The notes beneath the pieces were generated by a model. That model had not been told where the DNA came from. It searched no databases and was given only the letters and a program-made list of their open reading frames with translations. This document shows, piece after piece, positions 9,186 to 57,564 of a stretch of DNA of 64,000 bases; the stretch's first letter is position 1; each line of letters opens with the position of its first letter. The position numbers and the translations under genes were made by a program. This DNA is from Planktotalea sp. (GTDB taxonomy: Bacteria; Pseudomonadota; Alphaproteobacteria; Rhodobacterales; Rhodobacteraceae). The stretch lies in the NCBI RefSeq assembly GCF_018607995.1, contig NZ_JABBAL010000019.1:62001-126000 (forward strand). Reading direction: 5' to 3'.

Positions 9186-9200
9186 AACTCGGAGGCAGTG

Positions 9201-10466
9201 ATGAAAGTTTTTGAAGATATTCCGGCCTTGATGGCCGACATAGGTGCGCGCGCGAAAGCCGCCTCTGCCGTACTTGCGAGCGCCAGTGCAGAGCGCAAAC
9301 ATGCTGCTTTGATCGGTGCTGCGGAAGCAGTTTGGAAGACCCGTGACGCGATTGTTGCTGCGAACCTCCTCGATTTGGAATATGGACGCAACAAAGGCCT
9401 TTCTGATGCGATGATGGACCGTTTGATGCTCGACGAAGAGCGCATCCAAGGGATCGTTGACGGGCTGCGCGCAGTGGCGGAACAGGCTGATCCTGTTGGG
9501 GAACTACTTGCGCAATGGGATATGCCGTCCGGTTTGAACATTCGCCGCGTGCGCACCCCTTTGGGTGTTATCGGCGTCATCTATGAAAGCCGCCCTAATG
9601 TGACGGCGGACGCGGGAGCTTTGTGTCTCAAGTCCGGCAATGCGGTGATCTTGCGCGGCGGTTCTGAGAGCTTTCATAGCTCCGGTGCGATCCACGCAGC
9701 AATGGTCGATGGTGCGGTGAAAGCGGGACTGCCTGCGGACAGCATTCAACTGGTGCCAACGCGTGATCGCGCGGCTGTGCAAGAAATGCTGACTATGACT
9801 GACACGATTGATGTAATTGTGCCGCGCGGGGGCAAGGGTCTTGTGGGCCTCGTGCAACGCGAAGCGCGCGTGCCTGTGTTCGCGCATCTTGAGGGTATCG
9901 TGCATATCTATGTGGATGCGGCAGCGGATCCGGCCAAGACGCTGGACGTGGTGCTGAACGCCAAGACCCGCCGCACAGGGATTTGCGGGTCAGCGGAGTG
10001 TTTGCTGATCCATAAGGACGTTGTGGATACGATCGGCCAAGATCTTGTGCGCGCGTTGATGGATGCTGGTGTCGAGGTGCGCGCAGAGGGCGCATTGGCA
10101 GAGATTAAGGGCACCACGCCCGCCACTGCGGATGATTTTGGCCAAGAATTTTTGGATATGATTATCGCTGTTAAAGTTGTCGATGATTGCGATGCAGCGA
10201 TTGCGCATATCCGCACGTTTGGTTCGAACCATACCGATTGCATCATGACAGAGGATGATCGCGCCGCAGCGCAGTTCTTTAGTCAGCTTGATAGTGCGAT
10301 TTTGATGCGCAATGCCTCCACCCAGTTTGCGGATGGTGGGGAGTTTGGCATGGGGGCTGAAATTGGCATCGCAACAGGCAAGATGCACGCGCGCGGACCT
10401 GTTGGTGGCGCGCAATTGACAAGCTTCAAATACCTTGTCGAAGGTGATGGCGCGACGCGTGCGTAG
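9201..10466 (+). CDS. proA: glutamate-5-semialdehyde dehydrogenase (gamma-glutamyl phosphate reductase)
   Basis: 421 residues. Reduces glutamyl 5-phosphate with NADPH to the semialdehyde that cyclises to pyrroline-5-carboxylate. It has the aldehyde-dehydrogenase fold, with the catalytic cysteine near residue 260 in [15 protein letters not shown]. The ATG at 9201 sits 6 bases after GGAG; the adjacent in-frame GTG is less well spaced. The stop lies 6 bp from the end of the dead chpT on the other strand. Confidence 0.97.
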
Positions 10467-10472
10467 TGGCTT

Positions 10473-11083
10473 TCAAACGAGCAAGGTGACCTCAGCTTCG
10501 CTCTGAGCGTAGCTCGGCGTGCGACTCAAGTCACGCGCATGCATGGGCAAGAGCAAAAATTGTACATGCGCTGGAATCGTCTCTCGGTAGGCCTCGGGTT
10601 TAAACTCCGAAGTGCCTGCCAAAGAGTCCCAAAGATCTTGATCAAGGCTGATACGTTCGCCGCTCAGCGCGAGCGACTAGCGTCCTCTTAGGCGCTTGAC
10701 CTCAGCGTGACCACCATAAGGAAGCGCTTGTTCCGCACACTGGATGGCTAAGAACACCAATTGCACCTCACTGCGCGTCACATCTTCCAGCGGATGCCAA
10801 TTGAGTACCAATCGCGTTCCTTTTATAAAATCTCGCAAAATACTCGTTATTTCAGAGCGTCCAAGGAACTGTTCGGTGCTTGTTGCGCCGTATGCGATTC
10901 TAAAGAAGCAGATTCGTGCATTCGCTGCGTCTACACTTTGTGCAATCAGTTCTATTTCGGGACTTTGAGACGCGCCAGACATGGAAAGGAGTTCCGTGCC
11001 ATTGTTAATCGCGCCAGTTGGCCTGATCAGATCAGGACAGATGCACGCGCCTACCAAAGCGGAAAATTATAGCTTATGTTCAC
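10473..11083 (-). pseudogene. chpT: degraded histidine phosphotransferase ChpT
   Basis: ChpT passes phosphate from CckA to CtrA and CpdR. Reading from about 11083 the product matches the family along its length (DLIRPTGAINNGTELLS, ANARICFFRIAYGA, EVQLVFLAIQCAEQALPYGG, DQDLW). There are three lesions. First, the start frame (GTG 11083, then NISYNF) is out of phase with the body because the T-run at 11063-11066 is one base short. Second, a TAG at 10677-10679 stands where a Trp codon is expected before SLALSG. Third, the phosphorylated His of the ICHDL motif is Pro (codon 11034-11036, giving ICPDL). Together they mean no functional ChpT comes from this copy. Confidence 0.9.
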
Positions 11084-11113
11084 CCAATAGAGTGTCCTCA
11101 GAGCCTTGTGATT

Positions 11114-11299: not shown

Positions 11300-11450
11300 A
11301 GGTTAATTTTCTGTAAATCAATCTTTAGTTGCATTAAAACACGTCAAGAATGAGTTCAGTGTTTCTTAAATTCGTGATGTGCCTTGCTCTATTTTTCGTC
11401 TAGACCTCGGTCCGAGTGCTTGCGCACACAAATTCAGGAACACGCCTCGC

Positions 11451-12221
11451 ATGTCTGAGCCACATTTCGACATAGTTTTCGCGCGCTCTGATGAAGACCT
11501 AAGTGCCGCTCAAGCACTGCGATATGATGTTTTTGTGGATGAACTTGGCGGCGACGGCGATCTGGTTGAGCATGACACCCGTTTAGAAAAAGACCGCTTT
11601 GATCGTTTTGCGCGTCATATGCTGCTTTTGGATCGTGCACGCGGTGGGACGGTTTCGCAGCAAGTGGTCGGTGTGTATCGGCTACTTGATAATGAGGGGG
11701 CAGCGCGGGCAGGCGGCTTTTACTCAGAGGCTGAATTTAACATTGATGCGCTGACAGTGTCGGGATTGCGGCTCTTGGAGCTTGGGCGCTCGTGTTTGCA
11801 CAAAGACTATCGTGGCGGTATGGCGATGTATCATCTCTGGTCCGCTTTGGCGGGGTATGTGTTGCAAGAAAAATTTGACATTCTGTTTGGCACCGCCAGC
11901 TTTCGAGGCACCGATATCGAATGCCTCCATAAGCCTCTGACGTTATTGCAAAAGAACCATCTTTGTCCTGTGGGTATTCGCCCTATCGCGCGTCATCCGC
12001 GTGCTGTCTTTTCTGGAAATACTAGCGATGACATAGATCGCAAAAGCGCGATAACGCAGATGCCCTCTTTGATCAAAGCTTATTTGCGGCTAGGTGGCGG
12101 TGTCGGCGGCGGGGCGCACGTAGATCACAGGTTTAACACTACCGATGTGTGCCTTGTCTTGGACGTTAACAAAACGAGCGATAAGATACGCAGGCTTTAC
12201 ACAAAGGAGCATGCACGATGA
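11451..12221 (+). CDS. olsB: ornithine-acyl-ACP N-acyltransferase (OlsB)
   Basis: 256 residues. Transfers a 3-hydroxyacyl chain from ACP to the alpha-amine of ornithine, the first step of ornithine-lipid synthesis. The GNAT-like hemolysin/OlsB fold shows ALRYDVFVDELGGDG, LELGRSCLHKDYRGGMAM and LFGTASFRGTD. The start at 11451 gives the conserved N-terminus; upstream in-frame codons do not match the family. The last 4 bases overlap olsA. Confidence 0.9.
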   Translation: MSEPHFDIVFARSDEDLSAAQALRYDVFVDELGGDGDLVEHDTRLEKDRFDRFARHMLLLDRARGGTVSQQVVGVYRLLDNEGAARAGGFYSEAEFNIDALTVSGLRLLELGRSCLHKDYRGGMAMYHLWSALAGYVLQEKFDILFGTASFRGTDIECLHKPLTLLQKNHLCPVGIRPIARHPRAVFSGNTSDDIDRKSAITQMPSLIKAYLRLGGGVGGGAHVDHRFNTTDVCLVLDVNKTSDKIRRLYTKEHAR

Positions 12222-27037: not shown

Positions 27038-29688
27038 CTACGCAGCCGCGAGGTCGCGCAGAACGTAGTGCAACACGCCACCGTGCTCGATATATTCGAT
27101 CTCGATCGCGGTATCGATGCGGCACTTCAACGTGATCTCTTTGACAGATCCATCCACCATTGTGATCGTGCAAGGCACCTCTTGCAAAGGCTTAATCGTA
27201 TCGAGACCAGAGATAGACACGCTCTCATCACCCGTAAGGCCAAGCGATTTACGGCTGTCGCCACCCGTGAACTCTAATGGGATCACCCCCATACCAACAA
27301 GGTCGAAGCGGTGAATACGCTCAAAGCTTTCCGCGATCACAGCCTTCATATCCAAAAGCGCTGTACCTTTGGCGGCCCAGTCACGGGATGATCCCGCGCG
27401 TACTACTCACCACCAAAGACAACCAGTGGCGTGCCCGCTTCCTGATGGGCTATTGCCGTGTCAAAGATCGAGGTTTGCGCAACATCAACACCATTGAGCA
27501 TTAAGTTCTTGATACGAATGTTGGCGAATGTGCCGCGCATTATGACTTCGTGTTTACCAAGGCGCGAGCCGTAGGAGTTGAACTCGCGCACTAGCACTTG
27601 GTGACTCGTCAAATACTGACCCGCAGGAAAGCTTTCAACGAAAGTATCAGCAGGAGAGATATGGTCCGTTGTGATCATATCCCCCAACAGCGCCAGAACT
27701 TTTGCACCATCAATGTAGGTAATCTTGCCTGGCTCTTTGCTCATACCTTAGAAGTAGGGTGGGTTCTGGATGTAGGTCGATGCCGGTGGCCAATTATTGG
27801 TCTCGGCTTCGGTGATGCCAATGCCCTGCCACTTTTCGTCGCCTTTGAATACGTCCGCATAAATCGTCTGGAACGCTTCGCGAGTGACCGTCTGCTCGAC
27901 CAACTCCGCGACTTCTTGCGTCGAGGGCCAGATGTCTTTCAAGTAAACGCCTTTGCCATCCGCAGTCTGTGCGATTGGATCAGTTGCGAGGTTGATGTCC
28001 ATAGTACCCGCAATCGCATACGTCACAACAAGGGGCGGTGAGGCGAGGTAGTTTGCGCGCACATCTGAGCTGACGCGACCTTCAAGTTGCGGTTTCCAGA
28101 GAGAACCGATGTTGCAACGAGATCGCCCTCATGGATGATTTTGTTCAGATCTTCCTGAAGCGGGCCGGAGTTGCCGATGCAGGTCGTGCAGCTATATACA
28201 ACAAGGCTAAAGCCGAGCATACAGATCGTCCTGAAGCTCCGCCGTCTCAAAATAGGCGGTCGCCACTTGAGAACCGGGAGCAAGGGATGTTTTCACCCAA
28301 GGCTTGCGGTTCAGACCCAAAGCAACCGCTTTGCGGGCTACAAGACCCGCGCCGATCATCACGTATGGGTTGAATGTGTTGGTGGAAGACGTGATGGAGG
28401 CGATGACAACTTTGCCTCTCTCCATCGAAAAACCTTGGCCAGCGACTTCGACTTCTTTTCCCATTGGACGCTTGAAGGTCTCTTCCATTTCTTTGCGGAA
28501 CGCTTCCTTTGACGCCTGTCAACGCCACATAGTCTTGTGGACCTTTGGGACCCGAAATCGCAGGAACGATTATGCCCATGTCGAAGCTCAATGTGTCCGT
28601 GTAGTTCGGTGCATAGTCGTCGCCGCGCCAGAAACCGTTCTCTTTTGCGTATGCTTCAACCAATGCAATGCGGTCCTTGTCGCGGCCTGTTGTACGCAAG
28701 TAACGCAGTGTTTCGCCGTCAATTGGGAAGAAACCACAGGTCGCGACATACTCCGGCGCCATGTTCGCAATCGTCGCACCATCCGCGAGCGGTAGCGAGT
28801 CGAGGCCTTTGCCGTAGAATTTAACAAACCTACCAACGGCGCCTTTTTCGCGCAGTATCTCAACGATCATAGGAACAAGGTCCGTTCCTGTCGTGTCTTC
28901 CATCATTGTGCCCATCAGTTCGAAGCCGATGACTTCTGGGATCAACATGGAAATCGGTTGGCTGAGCATGGACGCTTCCGCCTCGATCCCGCCAACGTTC
29001 CAACCGAGAACAGCTGCACCGTTCACCATGGTCGCGAGGCTGTCTGTGCCTACAAGCGTGTCAGGGTAGGCAACTTCATCATCGTTCTGGTTAACGTCAG
29101 TCCAAACCGTTTGGCTGAGATACTCAAGGTTCACTTGGTAGCAAATGCCTGTGTCCGGAGGCACAACGCGGAAGTTAGAGAAGGCAGACTGACCCCACTT
29201 TAGGAATGTGTAACGCTCCATGTTGCGCTCATACTCGCGATCCACGTTCATTTTGAAGGCGCGTGGGTTGCCGAATTCGTCAACCATTACAGAGTGGTCG
29301 ATGACCAGATCAACAGGGTTCAGCGGGTTAATCTTTTGTGGGTTACCGCCGAGTGACTTAAGCGCATCGCCGCGAGGTCAACAACAGTTGGAACACCCTT
29401 GAAATACTGGATCAAAACGCGGGCAGGGCTACACGCAATCTCGCGTGGGCTCTTGCCGCCTTTCGCACCCCATTCGGCGAACGTCTTGATGTCGTCAACG
29501 CAAATCGTCTTGCCATCTTCAAAGCGCAACCTGTTTTCAAGCACCACTTTAAGCGCGGCGGGCAAGTTGGTGAAATCGCCAAGGCCCGCGTCTGTTGCGG
29601 CTGGGATGGAATAATAAGCGACGGATGCGCTGCCAACCTTGAGATCCTTGCAGGTGTTTCTGGTGTCCTTACCGACTGTGATGGGCAT
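27038..29688 (-). pseudogene. acnA: decayed aconitate hydratase (AcnA)
   Basis: Aconitase, a TCA cycle iron-sulfur enzyme, spread over three frames but colinear from MPITVGKDTR to the C-terminus HYVLRDLAAA. Lesions in order: about 7 bases missing near 29365 (AAMR junction); an extra G near 28518; two bases missing near 28213; one base missing near 28083; CAA to TAA at 27748; CAG to TAG at 27403 with a missing G beside it; and a shortened loop after LMLNGVDV. Catalytic residues are also lost: one cluster Cys is Ser (SITSSTNT), the His in DSHT is Leu (GTDSLAT), and the His in HQVN is Tyr (ICYQVN). The gene is dead. Confidence 0.95.
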
Positions 29689-35865: not shown

Positions 35866-35904
35866 AAAGGGCGTTGCAGGGATTGCAGCGCCCTTTATCT
35901 TTTT
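35866..35904 (+). terminator. intrinsic terminator after bioY
   Basis: Stem AAAGGGCG (35866-35873) with CGCCCTTT (35889-35896), extended by an inner TGCA/TGCA pairing, followed by ATCTTTTT. The T-run reaches the end of the converging OsmC pseudogene. Confidence 0.85.
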
Positions 35905-37107
35905 AAGAAAGTTCAGTCACCACTTCAGAGCTACGCTCTAATGTTTTGTGAACAGCGCATTTATCTGCGATCTCTAGCGATCGTTTGCGTTGAGCATCGT
36001 CCAGAGTGCCGGTAAGCGTGATCACTCGCTTGAACGCATCTAACTTGTCCAAAGTCCCGCTGTCTTGCGCGTGTACTTTGTCGTGGCTTACATCGACAGA
36101 CACGTCTTTCAATGGTCATCCTTTGCGCGAGCATACATGCGAGACGTCATGGATGTGCATGCTCCAAGGGCCGCCGATAAGAACCCATAAGGCGACATAC
36201 CGCGATTGGTTCCGCCATAGGCAAGTGGCCCATCGGCAAGCGTGTGGTGGTTTGAGCCGCCATAGACATCTTGCAAAAATCCGCGGGGATCGGCCGCTCG
36301 CACGCGCACGACCCCTTCGGGTGTGCCGATCGGCGGCGCAGGACGCGCCAGCTTAAGATAGCGTGTGCTCCAGGACGCAATCACACTTGCAGCATAACAG
36401 GCGTCGTCGGGGTTGGTTATGAGATGATCCGCATCATCTAGCGTCACAAAGCTTTTGGGATGCTGAGCAGCAACAAAGATATTTGTCGCATTTTCGACGC
36501 CAACAAGCGTATCAAGCGGTGCATGCATCACTAGCAACGCGGCTTTTGAAGCGGTGATGGCATCCCTCAAATTCGCGGCGCTCACATCCTCAACAAAACT
36601 TTGCCCGATAGTAACGGGGCGCACACCAAGATTCACGCTTGCTTTGCCATTGGCTGCGATTTCATCCAAAGCACCACCAAAATTATGGGTCACGTGCCAT
36701 GGATTATAAGGCGCACCAAGGGTGACGACGGCCTTGATCCCTTCAAGCTCTGGCGCGAGTTTCAGCACTGCAGCCCCGCCCAGCGAGTGCCCGATGAGCA
36801 GGCTTGGGGACATGCCACGCTGTGCAAGCATGGCTGAGGCCGCTTTCAAGTCATTCACGTTTGAGGAGAAAGTCGTGTTGGCGAACTCCCCCTGGGAATG
36901 GCCCAAACCTGTGAAATCAAAACGCAAAACGGCGATGCCCTAATTTGCAAGACGCCGTGCGATGCGGCGCGCGGCGGGAATATCTTTCGAACATGTAAAG
37001 CAATGGGCAAACAGCGCGGTCGCCAAATGGGGCCCGTCCGGCATATCAAGCCGCGCGGCAAGGTCGTGGCCGGAATGGCCGGGGAAGGTCAGGCGTTCAG
37101 TGGGCAT
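35903..37107 (-). pseudogene. broken alpha/beta hydrolase-OsmC fusion
   Basis: A bifunctional protein of about 400 residues: an N-terminal alpha/beta hydrolase (RFDFTGLGHSQGEF, nucleophile elbow GHSLGG) and a C-terminal OsmC peroxidase-like domain (GCxSMT as GACTSMTSRMYA, then DVSHDKVHA and CAVHKTLE). Read from the ATG at 37107 it has an in-frame TAG at about 36942, in RRLAN-stop-GIAVL, and a frame change near 36112-36125 where MYARAKDDH ends and LKDVSVDVSH begins in another phase. The OsmC Cys in CAVHKTLE is present, so lesions look fairly recent. Confidence 0.88.
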
Positions 37108-45938: not shown

Positions 45939-45971
45939 GAGTAAAATTTTAGTAGCTCGCAGGAAAACGCA

Positions 45972-47509
45972 ATGGACCATCATATTTTTGTTGGTGGCGG
46001 CGGCCTGGGCTAAACGGAAAAGCAATTGCTTAGCTTGGAATATGCCAATCGACACGATTTGATCTCTGGTGCCACGGACACGGGCAAGACAGTAACGCTT
46101 TAGGTTTTCGCAGAAAATTTTTCGAACGCCGAGGTGCCCGTGTTCCTAACTGAGGTTAAAGGCGTTGTATCTGGCCTCGCACATGCAGGGACCGATACTT
46201 TCAATCTGCATGAGGCGTTCACGTTACGCGCGGAAAAGATCGGGTTTAGCGACTACCTTTATCAAATTTTCCGGTCACCTTCTGGAATCTATTCGGCCAA
46301 CAAGGCCATCCCGTACGTACAACGATTGCGGAAATGGGCCTGCTGTTGGTCTGGAGTCTTCTCGAACTCAGCGAACCGCAAGAGGGTGTGGTCTATAATG
46401 CCTTTCGCGTCGCGGACGAGCAAGGCATGCCACTGCTTGATCTCAAAGACTTGCAAGCTTTATTGGTGTGGTTGGGCGAGCAGCGCGAAGAACTGACGCT
46501 GCGCTATGATAATGTGTTGGCGAGCTTTATCGGCGCTATTCGACGTCGTTTTCTGGTGTTTGAAAACCAAGGCGGTGCAGAGCTGTTTGGCGAACCCGCG
46601 CTTGCGCTGAGCGACATCATTAGCACGACCGCAGATGGGCGGGGATGGATTAACATTCTGGCCTCTGAGAAGTTGATGGGCCCGCCGCGTCTTTATGCGA
46701 CGTTCTTGTTGTGGCTCTTGTCAGAATTATTTGAAGAATCACCAGAAATTGGTGTTCCTGACAAAGCCAAGCTTTTCTTCTTCTTTGAAGAAGCGCATTT
46801 GCTGCTTGATTGCCCGCCAAAGCCTTTGGTTGATAAGGTCGAGCAAGTTGCACGTTTGATCCGCTCTAAAGGGGTGGGCATCTATTTCGTCACGCAGAAC
46901 CCGTCTGATGTGCCTGAAGATATTCTTGGTCAGTTGGGCAACCGCATTCAACATGCATTGCGCGCGTTACGGCGCGTGATCGCCCTCAATTCATGCAGGC
47001 GGCTGAAACCTATCGTGACAACCCTTTGTTTAATACCGCTGACGCCATTCGCGAAGTTGGCGTGGGAGGGGCAGTGACCTCGATGGTGTAAAAGAAGGTT
47101 ATTCCGGGGATTGGAGCGCACGCTGATCCGGCCACCCAGCTCTAAACTCGCGCCGATTTCGCAGTCAGAGCGCGCTGTAGTTGTCGCTAAATCGCATATT
47201 GCAGACAAATATGAAGCTAAAGAAGATCGTCAATCCGCCTATGAAATTCTGCGCGGGCGTGCGGACGTGACCGCGAAAGCTGCGGCATAGACTGAAGCGA
47301 AAGAGGAAGGAATGTAAATCGCGAAACCTGAATACAAATCCGCGCGTCGATACAATGGCACCCGCCTGACTCGCTCGACAAGTCGCGGGCGCGCCAAGAG
47401 CGATAGTTTCGGCAGTGCCATGGCGAAATTCGTGATCAAAGAACTTGAGGGCACCACAGGACGACGCATTGTGCGTGACAGCCTGGGCGGCCTGTTTAAA
47501 ACGAGATAA
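45972..47509 (+). pseudogene. decayed HerA-like ATPase/helicase (DUF853, YjgR type)
   Basis: Homology is colinear from IFVGGGGLG through YANRHDLISGATDTGKT (Walker A, normally GATGTGKT), LLDLKDLQALLVWLGEQREE, LFFFFEEAHLLLD (Walker B), EQVARLIRSKGVGIYFVTQN and ILGQLGNRIQHALRA to LIRPPSSKLAPI. Many lesions: stops at about 46011 and 46101, frame change near 46260-46330, another near 46965, and further stops near 47089 and 47288. It spans the normal gene length of about 510 codons. No function remains. Confidence 0.93.
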
Positions 47510-48523
47510 GCCAACACAACAAAGCTGCGTATTAACCTCGCCTTGCAAGGGGGAGGCGCATGGGGCGTTAACTTGGGGTGTGCTCGATCGTCTGTTGCAG
47601 GACGAATATCTTGAGATTGCCGTCACTTCCGGCACCTCTGCGGGGGCGCTGAATGCGGCCGACTTGAAGTCAGGAATGCTGGCTGGCGCTTCTGAGGGTG
47701 CGTGCGCCTCCCTTGATGCGCTGTGGGCTGAGGTTGCTTGCAGCTCTAGTGCAGGTATGGGGCAATGGTTCGAGCAAGAACTGTATTCACCTGCGATGTT
47801 GAGCCGTGCATTGGAACTTTCGCCTGTCTACGCTTTTGCGGATGTGTTTAATCGGATGACATCCGCTATTCGTCGGGACTGTTTTATAATCATCCGCTGT
47901 AATCCATTGTGGATGGTTTGGATTATGGTGACGTCTGCGCACCTGAAGGACCGGATTTGTTCATCGGCTCCACCAACGTGCGCAGCAGCAAGTTGAAAGT
48001 GTTCCAAGGTGCTGAGATTGGCCCTGATGCTTTGCTCGCCTCCGCCTGTCTTCTGACACTGTTTCGAACCGTTGAAATAGATGGCGAGCCCTATTGGGAT
48101 GGCGGTTACACGGGCAATCCACGGCTGTTTGAAAAATACTATTCATAGAATATTTTGACTTTCAACATCAATCTGTTGAAACGCAATGAGGTGCGACGCA
48201 CACCGCAAGAAATCCAGAACAGGATTAATGAGATTGGCTTTAACACATCGCTCTTGCGCGAATTGCGAACGATTTCTTTTGTGCAACGCCTGATCAGCGA
48301 AGGCCCGATAGAACAAGGTGCAATGAAGCGGGTGAATGTATATATGATTGCGGATGATACGCTGATGAATTAACCATCAGTCGCCACGAAAACAGTCGCA
48401 ATCCCGTCGGTTTTGGCGGCGCTTAAAAGCGCAGGGCAAGCGGCCGCTGATAGTTTTCTCGACACGCATTGCTCCGATGTTGGCAAACGCAGCAGTGTCG
48501 ATTTGCAGGCGATGTTTAGCTAG
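47510..48523 (+). pseudogene. decayed patatin-like phospholipase
   Basis: The glycine loop INLALQGGGA, then (in another frame) TWGVLDRLLQDEYLEIAVTSGTSAGALNAADL (nucleophile GTSAG), ATNVRTG-like FIGSTNVRSSKLKVF, WDGGYTGNPRLF (catalytic DGG) and NRINEIGFNTSLLRELRTIS. Two bases are lost near 47560 (GGGA-H-G region), frames change again near 47880-47910 and 48146, and a stop TAA stands at 48371 before SVATKTV. No start codon is visible upstream. Lies 1 bp after the HerA-like remnant. Confidence 0.9.
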
Positions 48524-55738: not shown

Positions 55739-57564
55739 TCACTCTTCGCGCAATGGTGGGGGGTCCTTCACTTCATGCCAAACATCCCAAAGCGCCAAAA
55801 AAAGACCCGTACGCAAAGGAGCTGCGGCGTAAAGAGGCTGCCATCTTGGTGCGAAGGCGCGTTTGAATTGCGCTAGGCCTTTTGAATGCGGTGGTGACAA
55901 AAAGCTTATTCTCTCAACCGATTGCAGCACGAAGGCCTCTTCATAAGGGGTTGAGGCAAGAGAAAACGTCTCGCACTGCTGATGTTTCGCGGCCTTAATC
56001 GCTGCCCAAACAAGGGCGTGCATGGTTCCGTCTGATGCGTCAGCGCTGCTACGCATCAGATCAAGCGTCCAAGCCTCCGAGGTTTTGTGACAACTAATGA
56101 AAGCAATCAAACGATCGTTCTGCCAAGCGGCAAAGACATCCTGTGTCGTGAGATAGGCCTCACAAAACCGCCCCATTGATAGACCACGAGGGGTTCCATT
56201 GATCCCATGCCATTCGCGGTCAATTTGATCTAATGTGTTGATTGTTTCCTTGGTGAGTGTGCGCTTGTTTACTTCAACGCCTGATTTCTCAATCTTGCGC
56301 AGCTTTCGCCGGAGTGTGCGTCGTTGGGGCGTCTCAAGCGTTGCTTCTTTAAGATCGATTAAGCCATCTTTCGCGATGCGCACTACAGAGAGGCTGCGCG
56401 AGCGCAATTGCAACGCTGTTCGCGCATTGCACTTATAAAAAAGTGGAATGGCCGCGCTTGTTCTTGCTTGGAGTGAAAGCGCAGTAAGGCTGCTTTGCAG
56501 TTTGACTGCGGGCTCAAACAACAGCGTAGTGGACTGCGTCGTGCGCGCAGTTGCGCCAATAATTTGACCATTTGGCGCAATCAACGTCGCCCCGGTTTGC
56601 AGCGCCGAAGAGGTTTCAGGATGCAAGCCGTGTGCGAAAAGGGCGACGCGACTGACTTCGGTTTGATCCTTCAAAGGACGAAACGCATAGAACATCCCCA
56701 GGCTTCTGGGCAGCACAAAATAGACAAAACGGAATGTGATCAGAGAAGTTAGTAGCTAGTTTATGTTGATGTTAGGTATCGCCCAAAGCAAGATCAGTTC
56801 AAAGGGGCCAACGCCAACTGGCGTATTGCTGACCAGCGCCAACCCAAAACAGACCAGGTAGATCGGGAACAACTGCGCGAACACAATATCCGTACTGCTT
56901 GGGGTCAAAACCCAAAATGCCAATGCCGCAGTGCCGGTATCAATGGCCGCAAAGCACATCGGCGCGAAGATCGCGAGAAGGCTTGGCAATCGAGTGTGGT
57001 AGCCGGCGACAGTTATGTGACGTTTCAGCGCGTATAAAGCGTGAAACAGGCGGCCAAGAACAGGCTTGCTTAAAAGACATAAGATGGCAGAGGCAAGGCA
57101 TGCGGTAAAAGCAAACCGGACAGCGCGAATAAGGTGAGCCATGGTCCCAAAAAGCTGATCGATACGGGGGCTGTCACCTTGCTTGCCACAGCAAGATTTA
57201 AGTGATGCAAACAACGCCAACGCGCTAGCGTGCCAATGACTAACCCAAACTCTAAAGTTTGTGATAGCGCGACCGCCGCGGCATCGCTTGCTTGAGCCGC
57301 CTTAGCACTGACACGCGTGTGCAGGATGCGGTGCACGATGACATCGTATTGCCCCAGTGCGGCAAAACTGGCGGCTGTTTCCAGAATGGTGAGCGACCAT
57401 TGAAGCGGTGTAATGCCGCTCCATGACCGCCCAACCTGACCCCAATCCAATGTTTCAAGAAACGGGTGCGCTGCGAGTGCAAAAAGTGGCAGCACTAGAC
57501 ACATCGCGAAAAGCTGAACAAAAGCTCTACTTTGAAGCACAAAGGAAGCAGATTTAGCAATCAT
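55739..57564 (-). pseudogene. broken MprF-like lysyl/alanyl-phosphatidylglycerol synthase with flippase domain
   Basis: N-terminal flippase membrane domain (from MIAKSASFVLQS; GQYDVIVHRIL, ALSQTLEFGLVIG) and a C-terminal synthase domain (RRTLRRKLRKIEKSG, GMGRFC-like GLSMGRFCEAY, FSLASTPYE). A frame change near 57070-57100 (after LPSYVF) and an in-frame TAG at 56756-56758 (IPNININ-stop-LLTSLITFRFVYF) break it. Family members aminoacylate phosphatidylglycerol to resist cationic peptides. The downstream half could still be made from a GTG at 56716. Confidence 0.88.

Follow-up and report, generated by a model that had tools for sequence, protein, structure and literature searches.

Lesions in chpT, cckA and ctrA of a Planktotalea genome suggest a CtrA phosphorelay being discarded with motility

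The CckA-ChpT-CtrA phosphorelay of Rhodobacterales is known from P. inhibens, D. shibae and R. capsulatus. Swimming of P. inhibens requires all three relay genes, and flagellar genes are core targets of CtrA, as stated in the sections of PMC12363192 that deal with the relay. Loss of the relay was not lethal in the Rhodobacterales studied, according to the corresponding section of PMC8116508. The same three genes were recognized in a draft genome of the marine roseobacter Planktotalea sp. (G000; 40 contigs, 3.13 Mb, 94.3% complete), the source of the window, by which we mean the whole stretch of 64,000 nucleotides that was analyzed. As in the relatives examined, chpT adjoins proA in this genome. 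However, all three relay genes are broken here. We consider it likely that chpT is one of three broken genes in a phosphorelay that is being discarded under relaxed selection accompanying the loss of motility.

The chpT pseudogene extends over positions 10473-11087 of the minus strand, from a probable TTG start at 11085-11087, opposite the Met of the copies in genomes G001, G002 and G005 in the alignment, to the original TGA stop. The span proposed in the original prediction, 10473-11083, was correct within a few bases. Its assignment to ChpT was confirmed by a match to the Pfam family HPTransfase (PF10090; 70.2 bits against a cut-off of 22.9, E 3e-19) and by a linkage to proA like that in relatives. 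With the stop read through, the match covered positions 2-122 of the 123 domain positions and contained one TAG. The nearest relative, HTCC2083 (genome G003), carries an intact, open chpT at the same place; it aligned with the pseudogene without gaps, and the 3.4-kb region around the gene showed 93% DNA identity. On one side of chpT lies proA (9198-10466, plus strand), an open and syntenic ORF that is convergent with chpT and 95% identical to its HTCC2083 counterpart. On the other side lies an open ORF (11379-12221, plus strand) used for the genus tree, which we take to be an olsB-like acyltransferase. The chpT-proA neighborhood was also found in HTCC2083, G001, G002 and G004, while the G005 contig ended before proA. 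Among 80 named proA loci, 61, HTCC2083 included, had a ChpT match within the fetched flank and 19 had none there. The NCBIfam ChpT equivalog models, which are named for Caulobacter and Brucella/rhizobia and were run on the open HTCC2083 copy instead of the window remnant, scored 93.4 and 93.0 bits with cut-offs of 225 and 240. A PF10090 search of the whole genome at E <= 0.001 matched only the window copy, and there is a small chance that a second chpT went unassembled, since the assembly is fragmented and 94.3% complete.

Two nonsense codons interrupt chpT on the minus strand, leaving no single open frame along the gene. The TAA at 11067-11069 lies six codons after the probable start and corresponds to CAA in HTCC2083, and the TAG at 10677-10679, about two thirds along the gene, corresponds to TGG. 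Furthermore, a Pro codon (CCT, 11034-11036, minus strand) replaced the phospho-accepting His of the ICHDL motif, as judged from the genus alignment and the named loci. This His was kept in all four genus copies compared (G001, G002, G003 and G005) and in 61/61 named loci with a ChpT match, in 59 of them within the best match and in 2 within the N-terminal piece of an interrupted copy. Alignment with intact relatives thus upheld two of the three lesions originally predicted, the TAG and the Pro substitution. The third, a one-base loss in a T-run, was rejected because the HTCC2083 alignment has no gap in chpT, and the spot in question is the CAA to TAA change. Further missense changes, R23C, S30R, M39T and R68C (numbered along the aligned HTCC2083 stretch, not from the start codon), were found at positions identical in four relatives. 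When the differences from HTCC2083 (20 residues, counting both stops) were polarized with G001, G002 and G005, 14 fell on this branch and 1 on the HTCC2083 branch, and 5 stayed ambiguous; 6 of the 14 are at sites identical in the four relatives. With two stops, the His lost and no other copy found, the gene is dead as proposed and, judged from its sequence, is a true pseudogene. As a separate observation, two named metagenome-assembled genomes also have an interrupted chpT that keeps the His; the interruption is a single in-frame stop at locus L073 and a single frame change at L137.

The two partner genes, both open in HTCC2083, are broken in G000, which holds neither an intact CckA nor an intact CtrA. 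Read in the register of its HTCC2083 counterpart, cckA exhibited seven stops in addition to two 1-base deletions; two of the stops lie next to the second deletion and may reflect where the gaps were placed. A separate tblastn search recovered the gene as three frame pieces, with 5, 1 and 2 stops. Over residues 327-763, 37 changes (3 of them stops) were assigned to this branch and 8 to the HTCC2083 branch, with 10 ambiguous. Substitutions in cckA altered D403 beside the phospho-His (D403V, AHDFNN to AHVFNN), two adjacent residues of GTGLGLS (L586R and G587W, giving GTGRWLS) and the MPG of the receiver (M700S and P701A, giving SAG). In ctrA, a 1-base deletion after codon 200 replaced the C-terminal end, presumably the wing of the DNA-binding domain by analogy with OmpR-type regulators in general; of the nine polarized changes in codons 1-200, eight belong to this branch and one to that of HTCC2083. 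The HTCC2083 CtrA was an equivalog by the NCBIfam model RespRegCtrARhodob (421.7 bits, cut-off 350), and the best NCBIfam matches of its CckA and ChpT were the CckA and ChpT models, both below their cut-offs. Pairwise Ka/Ks against HTCC2083, which is only mildly informative as evidence for relaxed selection, was 0.25 for chpT, 0.28 for cckA and 0.16 for ctrA, compared with a median of 0.09 (IQR 0.05-0.15) in 70 intact genes. At least 0.25 was reached by 4 of these 70 genes; the ctrA value lies barely outside the IQR and is exceeded by at least 12 of them.

Errors of sequencing or assembly can mimic dead genes, and a draft genome in 40 contigs gives some reason to consider them. Nevertheless, chpT was inactivated by substitutions only, with no indel, and several of these fell at otherwise invariant sites; random sequencing error does not yield such a branch-skewed pattern at conserved sites, as seen in the 14/20 differences assigned to one branch. 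In addition, 73 of 82 other comparable genes of at least 150 aa passed the same test, and the three affected genes are located on two contigs (C40 and C24), which makes an artifact extremely unlikely. Rewiring of the pathway is also very improbable. The original prediction spoke of a rewired or dismantled CtrA pathway, and rewiring would mean that CtrA or a truncated ChpT works without phosphotransfer. Unphosphorylated CtrA has been proposed to be active in R. capsulatus in a passage of PMC6363796, and a 126-aa TTG-started ORF is left within chpT. However, this ORF ends at the TAG and the ChpT His is gone; the deletion in ctrA has cost CtrA its C-terminal end, and eight changes in it fall on this branch. 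Rewiring therefore fits less well, and the dismantling half of the prediction is preferred because the CtrA regulator is broken too, with cckA and ctrA each carrying inactivating lesions of their own.

The relay genes might instead be some of many random and functionally unlinked pseudogenes in a generally eroding genome. Disruptions were identified in 9/82 other genes, including those for an aconitase, a HerA-like helicase, a hydrolase/OsmC fusion and an LPG-synthase-like protein, and the 3.13-Mb genome compares with 3.95 Mb for the main contig of HTCC2083 alone. Part of the decay is accordingly general, because these genes are dead as well, although some of the nine may not be real pseudogenes, such as a patatin gene that is split in HTCC2083 too and ORFs that were unsearched or had no Pfam match. 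Against erosion as the explanation, the HTCC2083 comparison found 3/3 relay genes disrupted versus 9/82 others (Fisher one-sided p = 0.0022, for a relay set of only three genes and for stretches chosen because the relay genes sit there). The background count, based on simple ORF calls, covered non-relay genes of at least 150 aa in the window and two further stretches (124 kb of G000) and excluded 25 HTCC2083 genes of at least 150 aa with no or partial match, some of them where the HTCC2083 stretch extends beyond the counterpart of the window. Moreover, a relay defect and a missing whole flhA coincide across all six genus genomes, being present or absent together, and in the family sample relay absence tracks flhA absence. 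The genome therefore erodes in general, the relay more than the rest, and unlinked random decay is an unlikely reading of the three lesions.

Several of the disrupted genes lie in the window itself. Those at about 35900-37100, 45970-47510 and 55740-57560 are the hydrolase/OsmC fusion, the HerA-like helicase and the LPG-synthase-like protein, all disrupted in comparison with HTCC2083. In the gene for the AcnA-type aconitase (about 27039-29688, minus strand; 894 aa in HTCC2083), five frameshifts were counted along with two stops. On contig C14 (L187, 596-3388, plus strand) lies an AcnB-type aconitase gene whose 930-aa frame is open, and among the matches listed none of this type came from the other five genus genomes. 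AcnA was apparently replaced by a putatively acquired AcnB; a broken TCA cycle was rejected as a consequence of the dead aconitase because the AcnB-type gene is present.

To return to the discarded relay, its damage or absence in the genus is associated with missing flhA. Of six genus genomes, G001 and G003 have a whole flhA, and these are also the two where the complete relay was found open; in the other four, a relay gene was damaged or undetected and whole flhA was missing. Contig C11 of G000 aligned with the second flagellar cluster of HTCC2083 but lacked 3.6 kb including most of flhA, of which only a C-terminal fragment with a 134-aa frame remained, and a DNA search of G000 with 15 kb of the first cluster, run without a positive control, gave no match. 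A second decaying relay was observed in G004, another species of the genus (L006 and L171 on G004:C100; L165 and L172 on G004:C26). Its chpT contained two opposite frame breaks and its cckA four stops. The ctrA frame of G004 was open; R118I and R217C are among its changes at invariant sites, but overall the changes were not in excess over those of G001 (8 versus 7, 9 ambiguous). In G005 (83% complete), cckA had a frame break and ctrA was not found, and in G002 chpT was open and cckA was not found. The G002 ctrA (L044, at the start of G002:C188) is recognizable from codon 42 onward, next to the end of the contig; an insertion or an assembly break may account for this. Phylogenetic trees of olsB and proA paired G000 with G003, and that of olsB paired G002 with G005; these groupings imply at least two separate events of relay damage, provided that loss was not reversed. 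For Planktotalea frisia, the relevant part of PMC5896138 reports that only 8/30 flagellar COG families are present, that motility is 'slight' and that there is a GTA cluster.

To place these findings in the family, 394 Rhodobacteraceae genomes were surveyed, of which 365 had a PF10090 match. The chpT-negative set, defined by PF10090, comprised 34 genomes, namely 29 without a match (9 of them inferred by elimination) and five with weak matches (G079, G084, G133, G153 and G385; E 9e-5 to 9.8e-4), taken by analogy with the genus as CckA-type partial matches; since just three genomes were counted as matching below the cut-off, two or more of the five may lie above it. Nineteen of the 34, none of them with a weak match, were also without ctrA and cckA (threshold for cckA E 1e-50), and 17 of these 19 lacked flhA. 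These counts ignore phylogeny, and the 19 include two pairs of congeneric genomes. FlhA was present in G092 and G272, with chpT, cckA and ctrA undetected at the thresholds used, so that flagellar genes apparently occur there without a CtrA relay. The remaining 15 chpT-negative genomes kept ctrA, 13 with cckA and 12 with flhA, and some of them may therefore hold a divergent ChpT that was missed; in G173 and G330, ctrA was present and neither partner was detected, and the CckA match of G257 (E 7e-79, 36% identity), counted as present, may be a paralogue. The gene ctrA was scored in the 34 chpT-negative genomes and in a sample of 46 chpT-positive ones, which contained ctrA in 46/46, flhA in 37/46 and cckA in 39 of the 41 tested. 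The nine sampled genomes without flhA retained chpT and ctrA, and thus flagellar loss does not always bring relay loss.

A plausible course of events would begin with the loss of flagella in this species after its split from the HTCC2083 lineage. With flagella described as the core target of this relay among Rhodobacterales, selection on the relay would then have relaxed, and chpT, cckA and ctrA could all have gathered missense, nonsense and frameshift mutations. That the loss of motility preceded and brought about the relaxation is our inference, as is the lack of any other protein that would phosphorylate CtrA. As to sequence of decay, a top-down course in which CckA went first, ChpT next and CtrA last is a tentative idea that we would rather doubt than adopt; CtrA would come last because its unphosphorylated form might keep a useful job for a time. 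Of the four genus genomes with a defective relay, all have cckA damaged or not found and two (G000 and G004) have chpT so; a frame lesion in ctrA was seen only in G000, the G002 copy being cut beside a contig edge and that of G005 not found at 83% completeness. Lesions numbered about 7 to 9 in the 764 codons of cckA, the largest target of the three, 2 in the 204 of chpT and 1 in the 238 of ctrA. In the family sample, 0/19 ctrA-less genomes, all drawn from the chpT-negative ones, had cckA, and 0/46 sampled chpT-positive genomes were without ctrA.

An effect on gene transfer agents, another suggestion of the original prediction, cannot follow from the loss of chpT alone. The GTA marker TIGR02218 was found neither in G000 nor in HTCC2083, where the relay is open, and HTCC2083 is named among the strains without RcGTA-like genes in a passage of PMC5896138. 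Since HTCC2083 also lacks the marker, GTA loss was rejected as the driver on this branch. No report of relay decay in Rhodobacteraceae was found in a literature covered in part, which is weak evidence of absence.

Relay loss of other kinds has been described outside this family. In Wolbachia no ChpT homologue was found, nor is one reported for Anaplasma or Ehrlichia in the section of PMC4426382 concerned; this endosymbiont retains CckA and CtrA, whereas here both are broken and the genus includes planktonic representatives in culture. In Rhodospirillales, chpT, cckA and divL are sparse (27-36% of genomes) and relay genes are often unidentified, as given in passages of PMC8116508. These concern another order, for which, according to the authors, homologues may go unseen because ChpT is divergent, and describe no decaying relay copies. 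The genus Planktotalea thus offers a natural experiment on what purpose the relay serves in Rhodobacterales. Should it be kept chiefly for motility, the relay would be expected to decay wherever flagella go; this prediction can be tested on the remaining flhA-less genomes of the genus and on those 19 of the family with no relay gene detected. Since relay absence is already present elsewhere in the family, G000 represents a new case of a known kind. In those 19 of 394 Rhodobacteraceae genomes no relay gene was detected at the thresholds used, whereas in G000 the remnants can still be read, an unusually legible case in which all three relay genes are broken and a sister genome keeps the relay open.
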